Assembly: GCA_902500775.1 (NCBI GenBank)
Contig: CABVRZ010000001.1
Span: 91,182-155,181 of the forward strand
Reading direction: 5' to 3'
DNA: 64,000 nucleotides
Source of the DNA: an uncultured Nitrospira sp.
GTDB taxonomy: Bacteria > Nitrospirota > Nitrospiria > Nitrospirales > Nitrospiraceae
Shown here piece after piece: positions 1-9,144 of this stretch (positions are counted from its first letter, which is position 1; each line of letters begins with the position of its first letter). Made by a program: the position numbers and the translations under genes. The notes beneath the pieces are model-generated. The model ran no database searches and had not been told where the DNA came from. It was given only the letters and a program-made list of their open reading frames with translations.

Positions 1-55
1 CCTCCGCCCCCTCGCTGTAGGCCCGACTGTCCCCACTCAAGCTCGTGATCGTCGG
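1..55. repeat. Exact copy of the 55-bp adhesin repeat start (second unit)
   Basis: Bases 1-55 are identical to 925-979. The spacing of 924 bp equals 308 codons, so the adhesin carries repeat units of about 308 residues and this is the start of the next unit. The identity at DNA level points to recent duplication or gene conversion. Confidence 0.85.
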
Positions 56-1789
56 GGCATCGTTCACGGCTGTGACCGTCACATCCACGGTATCCGTGGC
101 ACTGGAGAAGGCCGTGGTGCCCCCGTTCGTCGCCGTGCTCACCTTCGTCCCCGCCGTGCCACTGGTCTGATCCCACGCCCGGACGGTGAGCGCTGCGAGA
201 CTCGCCCCGTTGTAGTTCGCCCTCGGCGCAAAATACAGCCGCGTGCTGACATTGTCCGCCAACAGCAAGGCCGACGTGTTGCTCACCGTTCCTACCGCCG
301 TCCACGTCGTGCCCCCGTTTCTGGTGTAGTACCACGTCCCGTTCGTTGCGTTACTCCCCGTAATCGCGAGGCCCTTCGAGGTCCCAGTATCCACATCACT
401 GATCCCACCGGTGAACGCGCTGATCGGAGCGCCCACCACCCCACTAGGCCCCCCGGCATCCTCGGCCACCGTCAGCGTCAACGCCGTATCCGCCAGCACG
501 GGCGCATCATTGACGGCACTCACGGTCACGGTCGCGTTGTAGTTCGGACTCGTGCCGCCATCCCCATCGGTCAGCACAAACCGGACCGTGCGCGCCCCCG
601 TGGTCGGCGCATGCGTGTCGGTGTTCTGATAGGTGATGTTCCGAACCAGTGCCGTTACCGCCGTGGAGGTCGCACTGGCATTCAACGTGATGACGAGGTT
701 GCTGCCGCTGCTGCCCCCGGTGAAGGTCCCGATGGTCACGCCTTGATAGGTGACGTTCGCCCCGCTCACTCCGATCTGGCCCGCCCCCGTCCCCTGGTTG
801 CGGATCGCCAGCACATCTTCGGCGCTGTCACTCCCCGCCGTGAAACTTACGGTCAACGTCCCGGTATCGAAGTTCGTCGAGTCAACGTCGGCGACCACGG
901 CATTGCCACTTTCGATCACCACCGCCTCCGCCCCCTCGCTGTAGGCCCGACTGTCCCCACTCAAGCTCGTGATCGTCGGAGGCGTTTCGCCCGCCAACAG
1001 CCCAACCCAATCAACCTGCGTGTCGTTGCTAACGACGATCTGCGTTTCGATGGTCCCGGTCTGGAGTTCAAGGTCCCAATCGCCTCCAAGTCCGGCATAT
1101 CCCGTATCGTCGACACTCGCTGCCACATCAGCACCGGTCAGTTGGCTCAGCAACGTGGCCGCATCCTGACCGGCTTGGCCTTCGGCAAAATCGCAGCCAT
1201 AGACCAGGATGTCAGCCTGCTCTGACAACGCCTGCTTGATATTCGCAAGTTCATCCGCATACCGACCAGTCATGGATGCTTGCGTTAGCGTGCCGGTACC
1301 GAGTGAGAGTTGGCCTTCGGCTCCATGGCTGATGATGTGGATGGCATCGATCCCGGTTCGCCCCGTAAGCGATGCGGCAATCCGCTCCATCCCGTCCTGT
1401 CCACCGTCGAGCATCACGATCTGGACATTGGACCCCATCCCAGCGATGAGGGCTTGATAATCCGGCACGGTAGGATCCACGAAGGCGATTTCGGTGGGCG
1501 TCTCGCCGGGTGAATAGCTGGCAATCGCTTGTAGTAGCCCTTGGCTTTCAACAGACGCCTGGCTTACCGATACCAACGTGCGGTCGCTCGATACCGCTGC
1601 TTCAGCCTGCTCTTGTGCGACTTGTTCTTGATTGACTTCCACTTCCGTCGTAGCAGCGGCTGCATCAAACATGAGACGGGATTCGAGGGAGAGGAGCGAT
1701 GCCTTGATTCGGGACGTTCCTGACGGTTTTTGAACCGGCTTCGGCTTGCTCTTCTGCGGTGGAGCGATGCGTCTTTTTGGTCCGAACAT
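1..1789 (-). CDS. Giant repeat adhesin, N-terminal part (LEPR-like motif + DUF4347 + cadherin-like repeats), runs off the left edge
   Basis: The reading frame is open from an ATG at 1789 to base 1, about 596 residues, and continues outside the window. Residues 1-30 are rich in Lys, Arg and Pro. Residues 35-44 read LESRLMFDAA, close to the LEPR-type N-terminal motif of very large secreted repeat proteins. Residues about 100-245 resemble DUF4347, with HIISHG near 151-156, a YGC near 197-199 and a final GGDWDLE. From about 266 onward come Thr/Ser/Gly-rich modules ending in AVNDAP, typical of cadherin-like and VCBS adhesins. There is no Sec signal peptide. It is probably surface-exposed or secreted, and the export operon at 3295-9144 on the same strand is a candidate exporter (inference). 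The C-terminus is not visible, so RTX or other secretion signals cannot be judged. Confidence 0.8.
   Translation of the reverse strand, partial: MFGPKRRIAPPQKSKPKPVQKPSGTSRIKASLLSLESRLMFDAAAATTEVEVNQEQVAQEQAEAAVSSDRTLVSVSQASVESQGLLQAIASYSPGETPTEIAFVDPTVPDYQALIAGMGSNVQIVMLDGGQDGMERIAASLTGRTGIDAIHIISHGAEGQLSLGTGTLTQASMTGRYADELANIKQALSEQADILVYGCDFAEGQAGQDAATLLSQLTGADVAASVDDTGYAGLGGDWDLELQTGTIETQIVVSNDTQVDWVGLLAGETPPTITSLSGDSRAYSEGAEAVVIESGNAVVADVDSTNFDTGTLTVSFTAGSDSAEDVLAIRNQGTGAGQIGVSGANVTYQGVTIGTFTGGSSGSNLVITLNASATSTAVTALVRNITYQNTDTHAPTTGARTVRFVLTDGDGGTSPNYNATVTVSAVNDAPVLADTALTLTVAEDAGGPSGVVGAPISAFTGGISDVDTGTSKGLAITGSNATNGTWYYTRNGGTTWTAVGTVSNTSALLLADNVSTRLYFAPRANYNGASLAALTVRAWDQTSGTAGTKVSTATNGGTTAFSSATDTVDVTVTAVNDAPTITSLSGDSRAYSEGAE
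925..979. repeat. Exact 55-bp direct repeat in the adhesin (first unit)
   Basis: This is the partner of bases 1-55. It encodes the start of the first repeat module (TITSLSGDSRAYSEGAEA) directly after the DUF4347 region. Confidence 0.85.
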
Positions 1790-3167: not shown

Positions 3168-3297
3168 CAACAGGATGTTCAAATGACCCTTCCGGTACGA
3201 CCACCGCGCGCGGAAGGACAGAGGCATACGCGGTTGGTACGTTGGGGCCTTGAGCGTCGTGAGAATGCCCCAGGATGCTTTTCCCAACCTCCTGTCA
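3168..3297. repeat. Inverted-repeat element, degenerate copy 3
   Basis: The left end is CAACAGGATGTTCAAA. Read on the minus strand, the right end is TGACAGGAGGTTGGGAAAA. The interior keeps the TACG...GTACGTTG...TTGAGCG...GAGAA.GCC pattern of the better copies and the length is 130 bp. The TGA at its right end (3297-3295) is the stop codon of the M50-HlyD gene. Together with the copy at 2966 it fills the convergent gap 2969-3294, where no gene was recognised. Confidence 0.6.
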
Positions 3298-5436
3298 GAA
3301 TCCGCTCTCTCTGATCAGAGTAGCTGCCACCTGATCCCACGCGCGCCGAGCCACACTTGATGGTTGCCCCTCGATCTGAACATGACCGGGAAGGATTTGA
3401 TCGGGAGCGTTCAAGGCGTCGTCCGGACTCAGTCGGACACGATAGACCGAGACCTCAGGCTTGAGCCGCCCCTTCTCATCCTTTCTCACCGGAACATCGC
3501 CACCATAGACTGATGCCAGATAGGGCACCGTAAACTCGTGCTCATCCACCTCGGCAATCTCTGTGACATGCGCCCCAACCGATGGCCTGGTAAGATCGAG
3601 CGGGATAAATCGCGCCGCCTGCCCGACTTCAACATAGGTGAGTTCATTGACGGGAATGAAGCTTTCAATCTCCGACCGGCCGTTATTCACCAGATACGCA
3701 ACGGGAACTTTCTGATCAATCCAGCGTCCAGCGGTAAGTGAATCCTCTCGATCCCGGACAACCCCGGCGATGGGTGCCTTTAAAGTTAAATTGTCTCGTT
3801 TCGCCTCAAGCCCCGTTAGCTCGGCGAGTCCTGCCCGGAGTGATTCCGCAATGACCTGTCGCTGGTCACGATCCTGTCCGTAGCCGGCCAACCGGCCAAG
3901 GCGGTAGTCCCACATGGTCACTTTGGTTTCCGCCAGCCGCACTTCCTTGTCCAACGAGGGATTGTCCAGTACGACGAGCGCATCCCCTGCCTTGACGACC
4001 TGCCCATCGCGTACGAATACCTCCTGGATACGGCCGGCGGTCGGTGCAAAGATCGTCGCATAGGACGAAGCTTGCAGGACAGCTGGAATCGAGATGCTTG
4101 TGTGTAATGGAATCAAGGTCATTGCACACACCGCCAGCAGACATGCTGTGCTAAACCGCGCCCGTGGTGACGCCGCATACAGGGTTCGGTTGTTCCACCA
4201 GGCGGTCAGCTCCCGATAAATCGGCATGGCGATAAACCAGACAATCTCGACCAAGAAAAGAACAATTCCCAGGGCTTTGAAGAAATAGTGATAGACCATC
4301 ACCGCGATGCCGGTGAACAAGATCAGGCGATAGAGCCAGATCGCCCACGCATAGACCACCATGGTGTGTTGCACCCGCGCAGATACGATTTCTGGAGCTG
4401 CACCATGACGACCGAATAACAGATTTCGCAATCGCCACTGTCCGAAGGCAAATGCCCGATCTTGAAGATTCGGCAGGCCCAATCCATCCGCCAACACGTA
4501 GTAGCCGTCGAACCGCATCAGCGGATTCAGATTGACGACCAAACTCATCGCGAGACTGGTCGTGGCCACGATGAAGGCAATGCTCCGCAACGTCCCTTCC
4601 GGCAGGAACCCCCACACGAAGAGCGCCAGCGCCGCGAGTCCAAGTTCGGCGATGACTCCCCCCGCAGCGATCAGGAGTCGCTTCCGTTTGGATGTCAGGC
4701 GGTAGGAATCGGTCACGTCCGAATACATGACCGGCATCATCACCATAAACGCCACGCCCATAGTCGGCACTCGACACCCAAACCTGGTCGCCGTATAGGC
4801 ATGACCTAACTCGTGCACGACCTTCACGGCACCAAGCGACAGGCTGTAGAGAATGGCTCCGCGCCAATTAAAAAAGTAGAGGAACGTCGAGACGAACGTG
4901 TCCCATTGTCGTCCGACCAGAATCAGCCCGATGAGCCCGAGCGTGCCGAACGTCCACCCTGAGACGGCAGTGTACAGCGGCTCCACGAACGGGAGTGTGC
5001 GCTTCAGAAACATATGGGGATGGAACAGTGGAATCTTGATGAACAGATAGTGGTGAACCAGCCACATCACCCAATTATGTTCACCGGCTTGAGCCTGGCT
5101 CTGATAGTCCGTGTGTTTCCCGCTGGCTGATTGCTCCGTGAGATTATTCGTGTAGAGGAACTTGACCAGATCTTCGACATCCGCCATGGACGTCTGGCAG
5201 GTCGTCTCCTGCGTCATCGCCGCATGGAGCTTTTCAATGGTTCCAGCATTCCACCGCTGGATCATCTGATAGACCGGCCATTCGATCTGGAAATAGCGAT
5301 TGCGAACCGGATCAACGATGGTCCAGGTGGGGACCCCGTCAGGCGTAGGTGTTCCGCGGTTGAATTGCAGATTGGGCCGTAGGGTCGGCAGTTTCCGTTC
5401 TTGCGGCTTAGCACCTGGAGAGCCGGGAGTGACCAT
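3295..5436 (-). CDS. Membrane M50 (site-2) protease fused to a HlyD-type adaptor, with PqqD-like N-terminus
   Basis: 713 residues in three parts. Residues about 36-105 (TIVDPVRNRYFQIEW... to FLYTNNL) resemble a PqqD-like domain. Residues about 150-440 are polytopic membrane with the M50 zinc motif HELGH at 208-212 and NPLMRFDGYY at 304-313, which supplies the third ligand Asp in this family. Residues about 450-713 carry a biotinyl-lipoyl/HlyD barrel (APTAGRIQEVFVRDGQVVKAGD). It is the last gene of the export operon, 3 bp after the GAF-HlyD gene. Known M50 enzymes cleave within membranes; fusion to an adaptor suggests processing or gating of an exported substrate (inference). It ends in a repeat element that provides its TGA. 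Confidence 0.85.
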   Translation of the reverse strand: MVTPGSPGAKPQERKLPTLRPNLQFNRGTPTPDGVPTWTIVDPVRNRYFQIEWPVYQMIQRWNAGTIEKLHAAMTQETTCQTSMADVEDLVKFLYTNNLTEQSASGKHTDYQSQAQAGEHNWVMWLVHHYLFIKIPLFHPHMFLKRTLPFVEPLYTAVSGWTFGTLGLIGLILVGRQWDTFVSTFLYFFNWRGAILYSLSLGAVKVVHELGHAYTATRFGCRVPTMGVAFMVMMPVMYSDVTDSYRLTSKRKRLLIAAGGVIAELGLAALALFVWGFLPEGTLRSIAFIVATTSLAMSLVVNLNPLMRFDGYYVLADGLGLPNLQDRAFAFGQWRLRNLLFGRHGAAPEIVSARVQHTMVVYAWAIWLYRLILFTGIAVMVYHYFFKALGIVLFLVEIVWFIAMPIYRELTAWWNNRTLYAASPRARFSTACLLAVCAMTLIPLHTSISIPAVLQASSYATIFAPTAGRIQEVFVRDGQVVKAGDALVVLDNPSLDKEVRLAETKVTMWDYRLGRLAGYGQDRDQRQVIAESLRAGLAELTGLEAKRDNLTLKAPIAGVVRDREDSLTAGRWIDQKVPVAYLVNNGRSEIESFIPVNELTYVEVGQAARFIPLDLTRPSVGAHVTEIAEVDEHEFTVPYLASVYGGDVPVRKDEKGRLKPEVSVYRVRLSPDDALNAPDQILPGHVQIEGQPSSVARRAWDQVAATLIRESGF

Positions 5437-5439
5437 CGT

Positions 5440-6807
5440 TCACCAGCCCACCCATTGTCGAAGGGCGGTTAACGGACGGCGCAGCAACAAATAGGCCAGT
5501 GGTCCTTGCTCCCCGTACACCTTGGCCGTGCCTTGCCATCCAATCCGAATACGCGGATCTGGCGTGGTGAGCTGAGCCGTGACGCGGTAGGCTAAGACAT
5601 CACCTGGCAAGACCTCGGCATGGTAGCTGGCATGGACCACGGTCGCAGGGAACGACTCCAGGGCAAGTGCGTTGAGAAAGACAAGCGCCTCGGCTCCCTC
5701 TTTGAGCACAATGGCATCGGCCACCGGCAGATCAATGCGCAATTCGATCTGTTTGGGATTGGCGAGCTCCATAATCCGTTCCCCCACGGTCACTGGCCGA
5801 CCGATCCAATCAGACTTGTCCGAATAGAGCAACAGACCGGCTTGTGAGGCAGTAACGGTGACCTGGCTCAGCATTTCCTTCGCGTATTGCAGCTCGGTTT
5901 GGCGAAGATCGACCTCGGCCTCTTTTAACGGCACCTCGGCTTTTCGCTGTGGGTCGCCAAACCCCGCTTGAATCGACTGACTTTGTTCTGCTCGAGCTAC
6001 GGTTAATTGCTTTTCGGCGATGAGAAATTGATTGCGTAAATTCGTGTCTTCGTACTGAAACAACGCCGTCCCGGCTTGCACCATTTGGTTGGGATGCACG
6101 AGCATGTCCGCGATTACCCCATCGATCGGCGCACTCACGACGACTGGGTCTTTGGCCATCACTTTGACCGGCGCCACAGCCGAAATCCTGATCGGAAAAC
6201 ACAGTGCGCCGACGATGGCAAGCGGAATCATCCACCAGCTCGGCTTTTTGATCTTCTTCGACCAGCGCTGCTCCTTTTTCGAGAGCGCCTTCCACGCGTA
6301 TGCATAGCTCCCGGCCAGCCGATGGACGATCGCCATGTCGTTTTCCTGCCAGGAGAAATCCCGCTCAAACCACCAGGCGCCGAGCACCGTTTCGTCCGGA
6401 TGCTGCAATGGACACCAAAACACATGGCCCTTCACAAACTCCCGCCAGCCACCCCGAAGCGGCTCTGGTAACAGCTCTTCTGTAACCACTATCGGCTGTC
6501 TCTTGCTCTCTTCCGTCTGGAAGAGCGCCTGCACCGCCTGTTCAAGCCAAACAATCATCGGTGCATGCCGATCGACCACGGCCACACTGGAGGCATTGAG
6601 TACGTGACAGTTCTCCTTGTCCCCGTCTGATGGACTCAGGAGCAAGGCCTGATCGTAAGGAATCAATCGTCGCGTTTCATTCACGGACAGGAACTGCAAC
6701 TCTTGGACGGTTTTCGCCGCGCGAATCTGGCCCTCCAGATGCGTGAGCGCCGCCAGATGGATCAACGTCGGGATTTGTTGTGCGGTCGGTTCAGCGGTCG
6801 TCGCCAT
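5440..6807 (-). CDS. GAF-like sensor domain fused to HlyD-family adaptor
   Basis: 455 residues. Residues about 25-170 (IRAAKTVQELQFLSVNETRR... to DMAIVHRLAGSYAYAWKAL) look like a cytoplasmic GAF-type fold. One membrane segment follows at about 188-205 (WWMIPLAIVGALCFPI). A periplasmic HlyD part then holds a lipoyl motif (VVVSAPIDGVIADMLVHPNQMVQAG), a coiled-coil hairpin and a beta-barrel. It is the third gene of the operon. A canonical adaptor links an inner-membrane pump to TolC; here a cytosolic sensing domain is attached, so export could respond to a ligand (inference). Confidence 0.8.
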   Translation of the reverse strand: MATTAEPTAQQIPTLIHLAALTHLEGQIRAAKTVQELQFLSVNETRRLIPYDQALLLSPSDGDKENCHVLNASSVAVVDRHAPMIVWLEQAVQALFQTEESKRQPIVVTEELLPEPLRGGWREFVKGHVFWCPLQHPDETVLGAWWFERDFSWQENDMAIVHRLAGSYAYAWKALSKKEQRWSKKIKKPSWWMIPLAIVGALCFPIRISAVAPVKVMAKDPVVVSAPIDGVIADMLVHPNQMVQAGTALFQYEDTNLRNQFLIAEKQLTVARAEQSQSIQAGFGDPQRKAEVPLKEAEVDLRQTELQYAKEMLSQVTVTASQAGLLLYSDKSDWIGRPVTVGERIMELANPKQIELRIDLPVADAIVLKEGAEALVFLNALALESFPATVVHASYHAEVLPGDVLAYRVTAQLTTPDPRIRIGWQGTAKVYGEQGPLAYLLLRRPLTALRQWVGW

Positions 6808-6815
6808 TGTCAGAG

Positions 6816-7592
6816 CTACTCCACAAATTGTGCGGACCCGCTCATTCCGCTCAGGACGTTTTTGGGAAGTGTGTCGAACACGCCGGTTACTTTCACTGTC
6901 TGACTTGCGGCATCGACCGCCGCACCGATTTCCTTGACCTTCGCCGAATAGCCCTTACCCGTCTCATCCACGATGAATGTGAAGCGTGCTTGTCGCTTAA
7001 GCCACGTCAACGCCATGGACGGCAAGACCAGTTCAATCTCCAAACTCGTATCATCCAACACACTCAGCAGTTTATCGTTTGGAAATACGTTTTCATGCTC
7101 ATGCACCATCACGTCGACGATACGTCCACCAAATGGAGCAGCCAGGTGACACCCGCGCACATTGATTTCCGCGATTCGCCTTGCAGCCCCAGCTTTTTGG
7201 GCATCCGCCTCCGAAACCTCCAGATCCAACGTACTGACCGCATTGAGTTTGGCGAGCTCCTTATTGTTTTGGAACGTCTTGCTCTTGCCTTCGTGCTCCG
7301 CGGCCGCCGCCGCCAATTCGGCCTGGTACTTGTCACATTCCAGTTGGACGAGCGTCGCTCCTTTGACGAATCGCTGTCCTTCCTTGTATGGAACCTGATT
7401 GACGCGCCCCTGGATCTGGGCATAAAGCACCGCCTGTGAGACGGCTTTCACAATTCCGCGAGCGACACCTGGTTCCTTGGCCCCCTGCTGAATTAATCGA
7501 TCTCCCTTCGACCATCCCGTTGCAGGAACCCCCATTGCCGTTGCCGTTAGGAGCAGGGCTGCTACTGTACTACTGTGCCACCGGTGTCGCAT
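6816..7592 (-). CDS. HlyD/RND-type periplasmic adaptor protein
   Basis: 258 residues from the ATG at 7592, which has AAAGGAG and CGGAG upstream. A GTG at 7604 lies inside that Shine-Dalgarno and was not chosen. An N-terminal signal peptide (HRWHSSTVAALLLTATAMGV, cleavage near AATG/WS) is followed by a lipoyl half-motif (VSQAVLYAQIQGRVNQVPYKEGQ), a coiled-coil hairpin and a second lipoyl half (AAPFGGRIVDVMVHEHENV). It acts in the periplasm between an inner-membrane component and TolC. The start overlaps the end of tolC by 23 bp, so translation is coupled. Confidence 0.82.
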   Translation of the reverse strand: MRHRWHSSTVAALLLTATAMGVPATGWSKGDRLIQQGAKEPGVARGIVKAVSQAVLYAQIQGRVNQVPYKEGQRFVKGATLVQLECDKYQAELAAAAAEHEGKSKTFQNNKELAKLNAVSTLDLEVSEADAQKAGAARRIAEINVRGCHLAAPFGGRIVDVMVHEHENVFPNDKLLSVLDDTSLEIELVLPSMALTWLKRQARFTFIVDETGKGYSAKVKEIGAAVDAASQTVKVTGVFDTLPKNVLSGMSGSAQFVE

Positions 7593-9144
7593 GAGGCTCC
7601 GCACTCCTTTCTGTTCCCGACATGGTGAACCCAGTAGATTCCCAGTATCGCCTGATTGATTGTGCCAGTTGCGTTACACTCTGTTCAGCCATACTGACGG
7701 GAACGGCTTCTTCTCCCACGGAGGCCATCAAGGTGGCATAGGCCGTTTCCAAGCCTGCACGTGCCGTATCCAAACGCACATCGGCTGCAACATCGTTGGC
7801 CCGTTCCCGAATCAAGGTGAGATCGTTCGTCCGTTGAGTCAGCCACAAATTCCTCGTCTGCTCCACAATTGCAGTCTGTGTCTGTTGATAGTTTCTTGCA
7901 TCCTGGTATTCTTGCTTCGCCAGCACAAACTGCGTGGCGCCGACATGCACCTCCGTCAGAATAGACAGGCTGAGCGCCATACTTTGGACATCCAACATAT
8001 GCCCATTTGCGTCGATTGCTTTGAGCTTGGCCGGAGTCCGAAACACCGACAGCAAGTTCCAACTGGCCTGGGCGGCATAGCTAAGCCAATTTTGATACAA
8101 CAGAAAACTGTTACCGTTGTAGTAGCCGCCTAATGAGAGTTTCAGACTCGGAAACAGTTCCAGAAACACGGCCTTGGCTTCCTTGGCGTTAATGCGCTTT
8201 TTATAGTCGATGGTGCGTAACTCCGGCCTGAGCAGGAGTGCTTGCTCTTCCATCTTCTGAACATCCAAATTGACCACGGGAATCTCGGTTTCTCTGGATG
8301 GCACGACGAGATCGAACGACGATCCTGGCGGCAACCCCATCATGGAGGCCAGCTGCGCTTTCGCGGTACTGAGCTCACGAAATAGTCGCCGCACCTCACG
8401 CTGAATATTGAGTAAATCTCGCTGGTAGTTGAGCGGCGTCAACGGAGCCTGAAGTTTCTGGCCGACGATCCGTTTCGTGCTCTCCAACGCCTTGCTCACC
8501 GAGTCATCCAAGAACTGAATTCGCGGAAGCACCCGCTCTGCACTTACTGCCCGCCAATAGGCCCCTCTCACATCCTGGATTAACCGTACCGCCAGACGTC
8601 GCTTTTCTTCCTCGGCCACCATCACGTTGTCGGCCGCCTGTAGCGCACGCACAAACGACAGACCAAAATCGAGCACATCCCAACTCAACGCGAGATTGCC
8701 GGACGTGACGTTTTTTTCAGAGGAGGTGAACGGTTCAACCGCCGGGCGGCCTGTGAGAATAGATTGTCCAACTCCACCAGCGAAATTATTCCGTCCATCG
8801 AACCCGGCATTAGCCGCGACGTGAGGAAGCAGTGAATAGTGCGCCACATTCAATTGCTGATGCGCGAGTTGAACTTGAATCGTTTTGACCTTTGCCTCCA
8901 GGTTGTACTTGACGGCCCGTGCCATCGCCTCATATAAATCGATCGGCCCGGAAAGCGGTTCTTCAACTGCGGAGATCGCAAGAAAATCTTTCACGGCCCG
9001 AGACTGGATCTCCCCAGTATCCAGTGGATGCGGCTTAATGAGACATCCACTCATCATGAGCAGTGTCGTCACCCCTAGGATGGCCCATGGGGTTGTAGGC
9101 TTTCCTCGACGCTGCATGCCTAATAACAGGTAGATCGCTGGCAC
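7570..9144 (-). CDS. TolC-family outer membrane export channel (lipoprotein)
   Basis: 524 residues from a GTG at 9144 with a strong GAGGGGGG site. A later ATG at 9117 would give a more usual signal peptide. The lipobox is LLMMSGC. The rest is the alpha-helical TolC/OEP repeat pattern (YEAMARAVKYNLEAKVKTIQ near the N-terminus and a second OEP repeat in the C-terminal half, including ELRTIDYKKRINAKEAKAVF). It is the first gene of the four-gene export operon and forms the outer membrane duct. No ABC ATPase or RND pump is encoded in this operon. Confidence 0.88.
   Translation of the reverse strand: MPAIYLLLGMQRRGKPTTPWAILGVTTLLMMSGCLIKPHPLDTGEIQSRAVKDFLAISAVEEPLSGPIDLYEAMARAVKYNLEAKVKTIQVQLAHQQLNVAHYSLLPHVAANAGFDGRNNFAGGVGQSILTGRPAVEPFTSSEKNVTSGNLALSWDVLDFGLSFVRALQAADNVMVAEEEKRRLAVRLIQDVRGAYWRAVSAERVLPRIQFLDDSVSKALESTKRIVGQKLQAPLTPLNYQRDLLNIQREVRRLFRELSTAKAQLASMMGLPPGSSFDLVVPSRETEIPVVNLDVQKMEEQALLLRPELRTIDYKKRINAKEAKAVFLELFPSLKLSLGGYYNGNSFLLYQNWLSYAAQASWNLLSVFRTPAKLKAIDANGHMLDVQSMALSLSILTEVHVGATQFVLAKQEYQDARNYQQTQTAIVEQTRNLWLTQRTNDLTLIRERANDVAADVRLDTARAGLETAYATLMASVGEEAVPVSMAEQSVTQLAQSIRRYWESTGFTMSGTERSAEPHATPVAQ

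Follow-up and report, generated by a model that had tools for sequence, protein, structure and literature searches.

Four tightly coupled genes in a 64,000-nucleotide (nt) stretch of a Nitrospira contig (the window, whose numbering all coordinates follow) are likely to encode a dedicated tripartite exporter that lacks a type I ATP-binding cassette (ABC) transporter and serves the giant protein encoded beside them, which carries an N-terminal LEPR-like leader motif and a DUF4347 domain. Comparisons among genomes strongly support a link between this gene module and giant LEPR/DUF4347 proteins. Because the pairing recurs in distant bacteria, including a member of SAR11 that has no other type I exporter, the module is probably the route by which these giants leave the cell.

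An earlier note on this DNA had described coupled genes for TolC, HlyD, GAF/HlyD and M50/HlyD proteins, in that order, and all four open reading frames (ORFs) are indeed as described. The ORF listing places tolC, hlyD, GAF-hlyD and M50-hlyD from 9144 to 3295 on the minus strand, with a 35-nt overlap between the first two genes and gaps of 8 and 3 nt between the following pairs. Pfam finds HlyD_3 in three of the four products (E 1e-13 to 1e-17) and Peptidase_M50 (E 1.6e-8) in the M50-HlyD fusion, of which this Nitrospira genome has one full-length copy. The GAF part of the GAF-HlyD fusion gives no Pfam match in the window protein, although 5 of 18 aligned relatives do match PF01590. None of the four proteins has a plausible Walker A P-loop. 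The earlier note also held that the operon lacks an ABC transporter; no type I ABC gene was found there or in the rest of the window, where the sole ABC genes found belong to a drug-efflux ABC-2 cassette (approximately 34.4–37.5 kb) that lies beside an RND pump, about 20 kb or more from the module.

Table 1. Features of the module, the giant gene and the gene between them
Feature	Position	Strand	Basis
TolC-family outer-membrane factor, 524 aa	7570..9144	-	PF02321 OEP E 4.6e-23
HlyD/RND-type periplasmic adaptor, 262 aa	6816..7604	-	TIGR01730 110.7 bits, cut-off 94.9
GAF-HlyD fusion, 455 aa, one transmembrane segment near aa 193-211	5440..6807	-	
M50-HlyD fusion, 713 aa	3295..5436	-	Pfam and AlphaFold2 model
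Likely PqqD/RRE-like N-terminal domain of M50-HlyD	about aa 14-103	-	via sister-class profile
M50 membrane metalloprotease core of M50-HlyD	HELGH aa 208-212, D310	-	alignment; RseP Z 10.7
HELGH zinc-binding motif	4801..4815	-	sequence
HlyD/MacA-like C-terminal adaptor of M50-HlyD	about aa 445-695	-	MacA Z 15.9
N-terminal part of LEPR/DUF4347 cadherin-type giant surface protein, probable substrate	2..1789	-	
LEPR-like leader motif LESRLMFDA (aa 35-43)	1661..1687	-	sequence
DUF4347 domain (aa 101-265), caspase/CHAT-like fold, candidate pair H155/C199	995..1489	-	Pfam and model
TIGR04255-family gene between module and adhesin gene	2243-2968	+ (opposite strand)	

The giant gene is truncated by the window edge and then, just outside the window, by a run of N that marks an assembly gap. 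The part that is present bears out the description of it as an adhesin with a LEPR-like leader, a DUF4347 domain and no Sec-like hydrophobic segment in its N-terminal stretch. DUF4347 (PF14252) is matched with an E value of 1e-54 and 184.8 bits against a gathering score of 24.6, and the protein carries cadherin-like repeats. Leader residues L35, E36 and R38 are invariant in 25 aligned relatives. The LEPR-XLL model NF012209 does not match the window protein and does match the proteins encoded in the equivalent place in Gammaproteobacteria, Hydrogenophaga, sphingomonads and SAR11. A second LEPR/DUF4347 giant is encoded further along the same contig. The same genome also encodes an orphan LEPR/DUF4347 protein of 934 amino acids (G000:C26:42710-45514, locus L007), with no module gene among the surrounding ORFs read.

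When species genomes were scanned for the M50 protein, 278 relatives came up, of which 80 were kept; these come from Nitrospira, sphingomonads, Erythrobacter, SAR11, Hydrogenophaga, Zooshikella, Parvularculaceae and Geobacteraceae. A single-sequence search finds DUF4347 in 43 of the 80 loci; two more have LEPR only, and in 21 a giant ORF starts beyond the locus. Most of the residual 14 end at or near a contig end or contain Ns. A profile search detects DUF4347 in 26 of the 31 non-Nitrospira genomes. Among 217 Nitrospirota genomes, 30 have both the full-length module and DUF4347, one has the module only (G165, whose M50 gene ends in Ns), three have DUF4347 only and 183 have neither. The two occur in the same five of 157 SAR11 genomes and nowhere else among them (Fisher test with kinship ignored, p 1.3e-9), and 369 gammaproteobacterial genomes divide into 37 with both, 22 with an M50 relative only, 10 with DUF4347 only and 300 with neither.

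The two are also neighbours. In Nitrospirota, 29 of 33 copies lie within 15 kb of each other on the same strand, mostly 0.3–1.8 kb apart. The giant gene nevertheless occupies different slots: downstream of the M50 gene in Nitrospira, 15 nt before tolC in sphingomonads (L183), between tolC and hlyD in SAR11 (L179/L180), 15 nt before hlyD in the SAR11 genome G273, and between hlyD and GAF-hlyD in Hydrogenophaga (L097), where it overlaps GAF-hlyD by 8 nt. A pairing that persists through such varied arrangements is not easily put down to chance or to simple descent. The substrate link proposed in the earlier note thus passes the co-occurrence check in Nitrospirota, SAR11 and Gammaproteobacteria and survives rearrangement of the operon.

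The leader, rather than DUF4347, appears to mark a protein for this module. By pattern, 58 of 59 module-linked DUF4347 proteins have the motif L-E-x-R-hydrophobic3-D/S-A/G near their start, and the last has a V variant. In Gammaproteobacteria, a LEPR-like motif is present in 12 of 12 DUF4347 proteins beside a module versus 2 of 10 in module-free genomes (p 1.4e-4), a count that includes two variants read by eye; the strict pattern gives 10 of 12 (p 0.005). DUF4347 proteins of module-free genomes mostly lack LEPR and start with a Sec-like signal peptide or with the domain itself. DUF4347 was therefore rejected as the export tag. The N-termini of module-linked giants have maximum KD15 values mostly of 0.6–1.7 and one of 2.1, whereas the median of the co-encoded HlyD proteins is 2.1. 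In the giants scanned, the repeats are of the cadherin, VCBS and Ig kinds, no RTX family is seen, and the complete module-linked giants contain 0 GGxGxD repeats, so RTX repeats were likewise rejected as the export signal.

The predicted structure of the DUF4347 domain resembles the type VI protein Tce1 (Z 12.7), CHAT proteases (Z 8.3) and caspases (Z 6 to 7), which places its fold with the clan CD (caspase-like) peptidases. C199 is invariant and H155 is present in at least 90% of 25 aligned sequences. The invariant cysteine is the only cysteine in many giants, which suggests that the domain may cleave its own protein after export. In the DUF4347 domains of L058 and L059, the candidate catalytic histidine is replaced by glutamate (LITEGNEA and LIAEGNEA) and the cysteine is retained.

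In the M50-HlyD protein, H208, E209, G211, H212 and D310 are invariant in an alignment of 17 diverse relatives. As in the M50 (site-2 protease) family, the HExxH motif and the aspartate zinc ligand lie within a membrane core. An AlphaFold2 model (pLDDT 82) has a core that resembles RseP and an adaptor whose fold is nearest to MacA, EmrA and MexA (Table 1). With its catalytic residues conserved, the protein is a candidate for a protease that gates export. The hit list of the whole-model fold search was taken up by the adaptor and has no bearing on the N-terminal domain, whose modelled topology is beta-beta-beta-alpha-alpha-alpha. The corresponding domain of a second, sister class of M50-HlyD proteins has a profile that matches the PqqD structure 3g2b (E 3e-5), and hhalign relates the N-terminal domains of the two classes with an E value of 4e-6 and a probability of 87%. 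A direct PDB profile search with the window-class domain gave no significant match and no direct PqqD hit. The domain is nonetheless likely to be PqqD-like. Domains of the PqqD type bind leader peptides, and on that ground the one in M50-HlyD would be the reader of LEPR.

The same features could befit a module that makes and exports a small modified peptide of the daptide or epipeptide kind, with the adhesin gene a mere neighbour. Indeed, the M50 part resembles the daptide M50 protease (NF041824, 158.7 bits against a cut-off of 300) and the YydH/LiaK proteases (35.6 bits against 225), falling below both thresholds, and a PqqD-like domain would suit such a role. However, the neighbourhoods that were read showed no recognizable modifying enzyme, the adhesin gene accompanies the module in several phyla although its slot varies, and LEPR tracks the module. 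We regard peptide export as very improbable.

The giants also differ at their C-termini. Several Nitrospira giants (L043, L029, L033, L038, L051 and L065) have a conserved C-terminal hydrophobic stretch with basic residues and a short tail, and those of SAR11 and Hydrogenophaga share another C-terminal motif, PLxxQ ... YGxxLI. Because the hydrophobic stretch is absent from the latter, C-terminal cleavage by the M50 protease was dropped as a general model.

The sister class scores about 300 bits against the window-class profile, keeps the zinc motif as HExxH, and is encoded with GAF-HlyD and HlyD proteins. In its GAF-HlyD proteins the GAF domain is clear (PF01590, E 9e-11). Ten of the 16 sister loci read also encode a SecA-like protein of 658–703 amino acids with an intact Walker A motif. 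Sister modules adjoin LEPR proteins without a detected DUF4347 (L192, L193 and L276). One of these, L193:14850-16997, weakly matches Planc_extracel (PF07595, E 0.03), hinting that a planctomycete N-terminal motif may be the same signal as LEPR.

Several observations weigh against the module being the exporter of these giants. The PqqD assignment for the window class rests on the profile match to the sister class together with topology. No energy source is encoded in the window class, and its operons contain no P-loop protein. In 22 gammaproteobacterial genomes an M50 relative occurs without DUF4347, and some of these cases may be due to gaps, distant relatives or other LEPR proteins; two LEPR/DUF4347 proteins, both on short contigs, occur in genomes without a detected module; and the Fisher tests ignore shared ancestry. 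Furthermore, this Nitrospira has, at other places in its genome, two HlyB-type transporters and one of the PrtD type, so that one of these three type I ABC transporters could serve the giant.

A rival proposal is that the giant is exported by a canonical type I ABC transporter encoded elsewhere and that the M50/GAF module would only process, retain or regulate it. The HlyB- and PrtD-type transporters just mentioned fit this proposal, as does a reported Vibrio LEPR-XLL giant with C-terminal RTX domains (PMC10868602). Because it has these transporters, this Nitrospira cannot answer the question, whereas SAR11 can. Most module-bearing SAR11 genomes contain one full-length PF00664 protein of about 580 amino acids, and six such homologues tested score best against TIGR02203 (MsbA), yet below the cut-off of that model. 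One SAR11 chromosome, G273, was read whole (1,308,759 bp and 1,533 ORFs). It has one each of the tolC-like, hlyD, GAF-hlyD and M50-hlyD genes, a single SecA of 854 amino acids, and one LEPR motif in all its ORFs, located in a 7,341-residue LEPR/DUF4347 giant. Its lone fused ABC exporter is a 579-residue MsbA-like protein, and a type I ABC route is thus unavailable in that cell. A dedicated ABC transporter encoded elsewhere, which the earlier note had named as grounds for abandoning its hypothesis, is therefore missing from G273, and the proposal is already contradicted for SAR11. The lack of GGxGxD repeats in the complete giants and the inclusion of TolC and a separate HlyD in the module itself also speak against it, making export by an ABC transporter elsewhere improbable.

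Among candidates for the driving force, SecA is most likely the best, by analogy with the sister class, which recruited a SecA-like protein. No SecA-like ORF is present in the window or in the window-class loci read; the rest of this Nitrospira genome was not searched for one. Another rival proposal has the giant cross the inner membrane through the ordinary SecA/SecYEG route: LEPR would be an atypical signal, the M50 protein would serve as leader peptidase, and the adaptors would act only from the periplasm to TolC. This route accords with G273, where SecA is present once and a type I ABC transporter is missing, with the SecA-like ATPase of the sister class, and with the ability of M50 proteases to cleave signal remnants, as is known for RseP. 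However, the N-termini of the giants mostly lack a normal Sec hydrophobic core, and module-free DUF4347 proteins often have Sec-like signals, which makes one kind of signal look like a substitute for the other. Moreover, a complete set of adaptors linked to the inner membrane would be superfluous. We consider the SecA/SecYEG route unlikely on balance, although it has a real chance of being correct.

Next to the giant gene, often directly downstream, loci of both module classes repeatedly encode a histidine kinase whose N-terminal part is related from one locus to another; it is a possible regulator (L004:6476-8419, on this contig at C1:69472-71397, and L051, L052, L053, L054, L059, L038, L043, L195 and L265). 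Together with the GAF domain and the presence of a protease in the module, this recurrent gene would suit a system that does not export the adhesin but controls whether it stays on the surface or is shed, in the way that LapD/LapG control LapA. Such a system would not call for the complete set of adaptors and TolC, and G273 would be left with no other type I exporter. We think it quite improbable that retention or shedding is the module's function.

For the module as exporter, we infer export itself, leader cleavage, PqqD-like recognition, SecA involvement, GAF sensing and DUF4347 autoprocessing, in the following order. The cytosolic LEPR leader of the unfolded giant would be bound by the PqqD/RRE-like domain of M50-HlyD. 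The membrane-embedded M50 part, which runs on into a periplasmic HlyD part of the same protein, would then admit the chain and probably cleave the leader. M50-HlyD, the separate HlyD and GAF-HlyD would join TolC to form the conduit, with the GAF domain as a cytosolic control input. After export, the giant may process itself through the caspase-like DUF4347 domain that adjoins the leader. The drive would most likely come from SecA, a housekeeping copy in the window class and the dedicated SecA-like protein in the sister class, with an added contribution from cadherin and Ig repeats folding outside the cell. That this amounts to a separate Gram-negative form of one-step secretion for proteins of several thousand residues, with an M50-adaptor gate, a PqqD-like reader of LEPR, a TolC exit and SecA as the motor in place of an ABC transporter, is a possibility that we put forward tentatively.

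The earlier note called this a candidate new export system, and its newness stands in part. A locus with SecA_DEAD, M50-HlyD, GAF-HlyD and HlyD proteins and no ABC transporter was published by Kamneva, Poudel and Ward in 2015 (PMC4452313), who proposed SecA as the ATPase and M50 as the pore and termed its role completely unknown. Their text mentions neither LEPR nor DUF4347 and gives no substrate, nor does it include the SecA-less class. In the open-access literature searched, neither that class nor its link to LEPR/DUF4347 proteins is reported, and the same holds for the PqqD-like domain and the caspase-like DUF4347 fold described here; the DUF4347 papers held nothing on export. As judged from sequence, the window module is a variant of an ABC-less module about which little is known; it contains TolC, lacks SecA, and can now be given a likely substrate and a likely signal. 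This joins three unexplained things, an ABC-less type-I-like locus, the LEPR motif and DUF4347, and gives each a testable role. It also offers an export route for the giants of Nitrospira, sphingomonads and some SAR11, at least one of which lacks a type I ABC transporter. If the proposed parts of leader, gate and SecA hold true, this would be a new way of secreting giant proteins.

Among the closest known systems is the SecA_DEAD locus of 2015, in which M50-HlyD, GAF-HlyD and HlyD are likewise encoded together without an ABC transporter; the window locus differs by having no SecA-like gene and by including tolC. Canonical type I systems (HlyBD-TolC and LapBCE) share the HlyD adaptors, TolC and a giant adhesin with cadherin, VCBS or Ig repeats, whereas the window operon has no ABC ATPase, and the complete giants lack RTX GGxGxD repeats and have a conserved leader at the N-terminus. 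MacAB-TolC and EmrAB-TolC are similar in that the adaptor fold of M50-HlyD is closest to MacA, EmrA and MexA, but here an M50 protease, joined to the adaptor in one protein, stands in for MacB or EmrB as the inner-membrane partner. The daptide M50 protease and PqqD/RRE leader readers have in common with M50-HlyD the M50 core and a likely PqqD-like N-terminal domain; unlike NF041824 members, the window protein scores below the cut-off, is fused to HlyD and has no recognized peptide cluster. Tce1 (a DUF4347 protein of a type VI system, PDB 9qpe) and the caspase/CHAT proteases share the predicted DUF4347 fold, which here, in contrast to Tce1, follows a LEPR leader and forms part of a giant surface protein. 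Finally, the accessory SecA2/SecY2 system is Gram-positive, is based on SecY2, exports serine-rich adhesins and works without M50, HlyD or TolC; it resembles only the sister class, in which a second SecA would likewise be dedicated to a giant adhesin.

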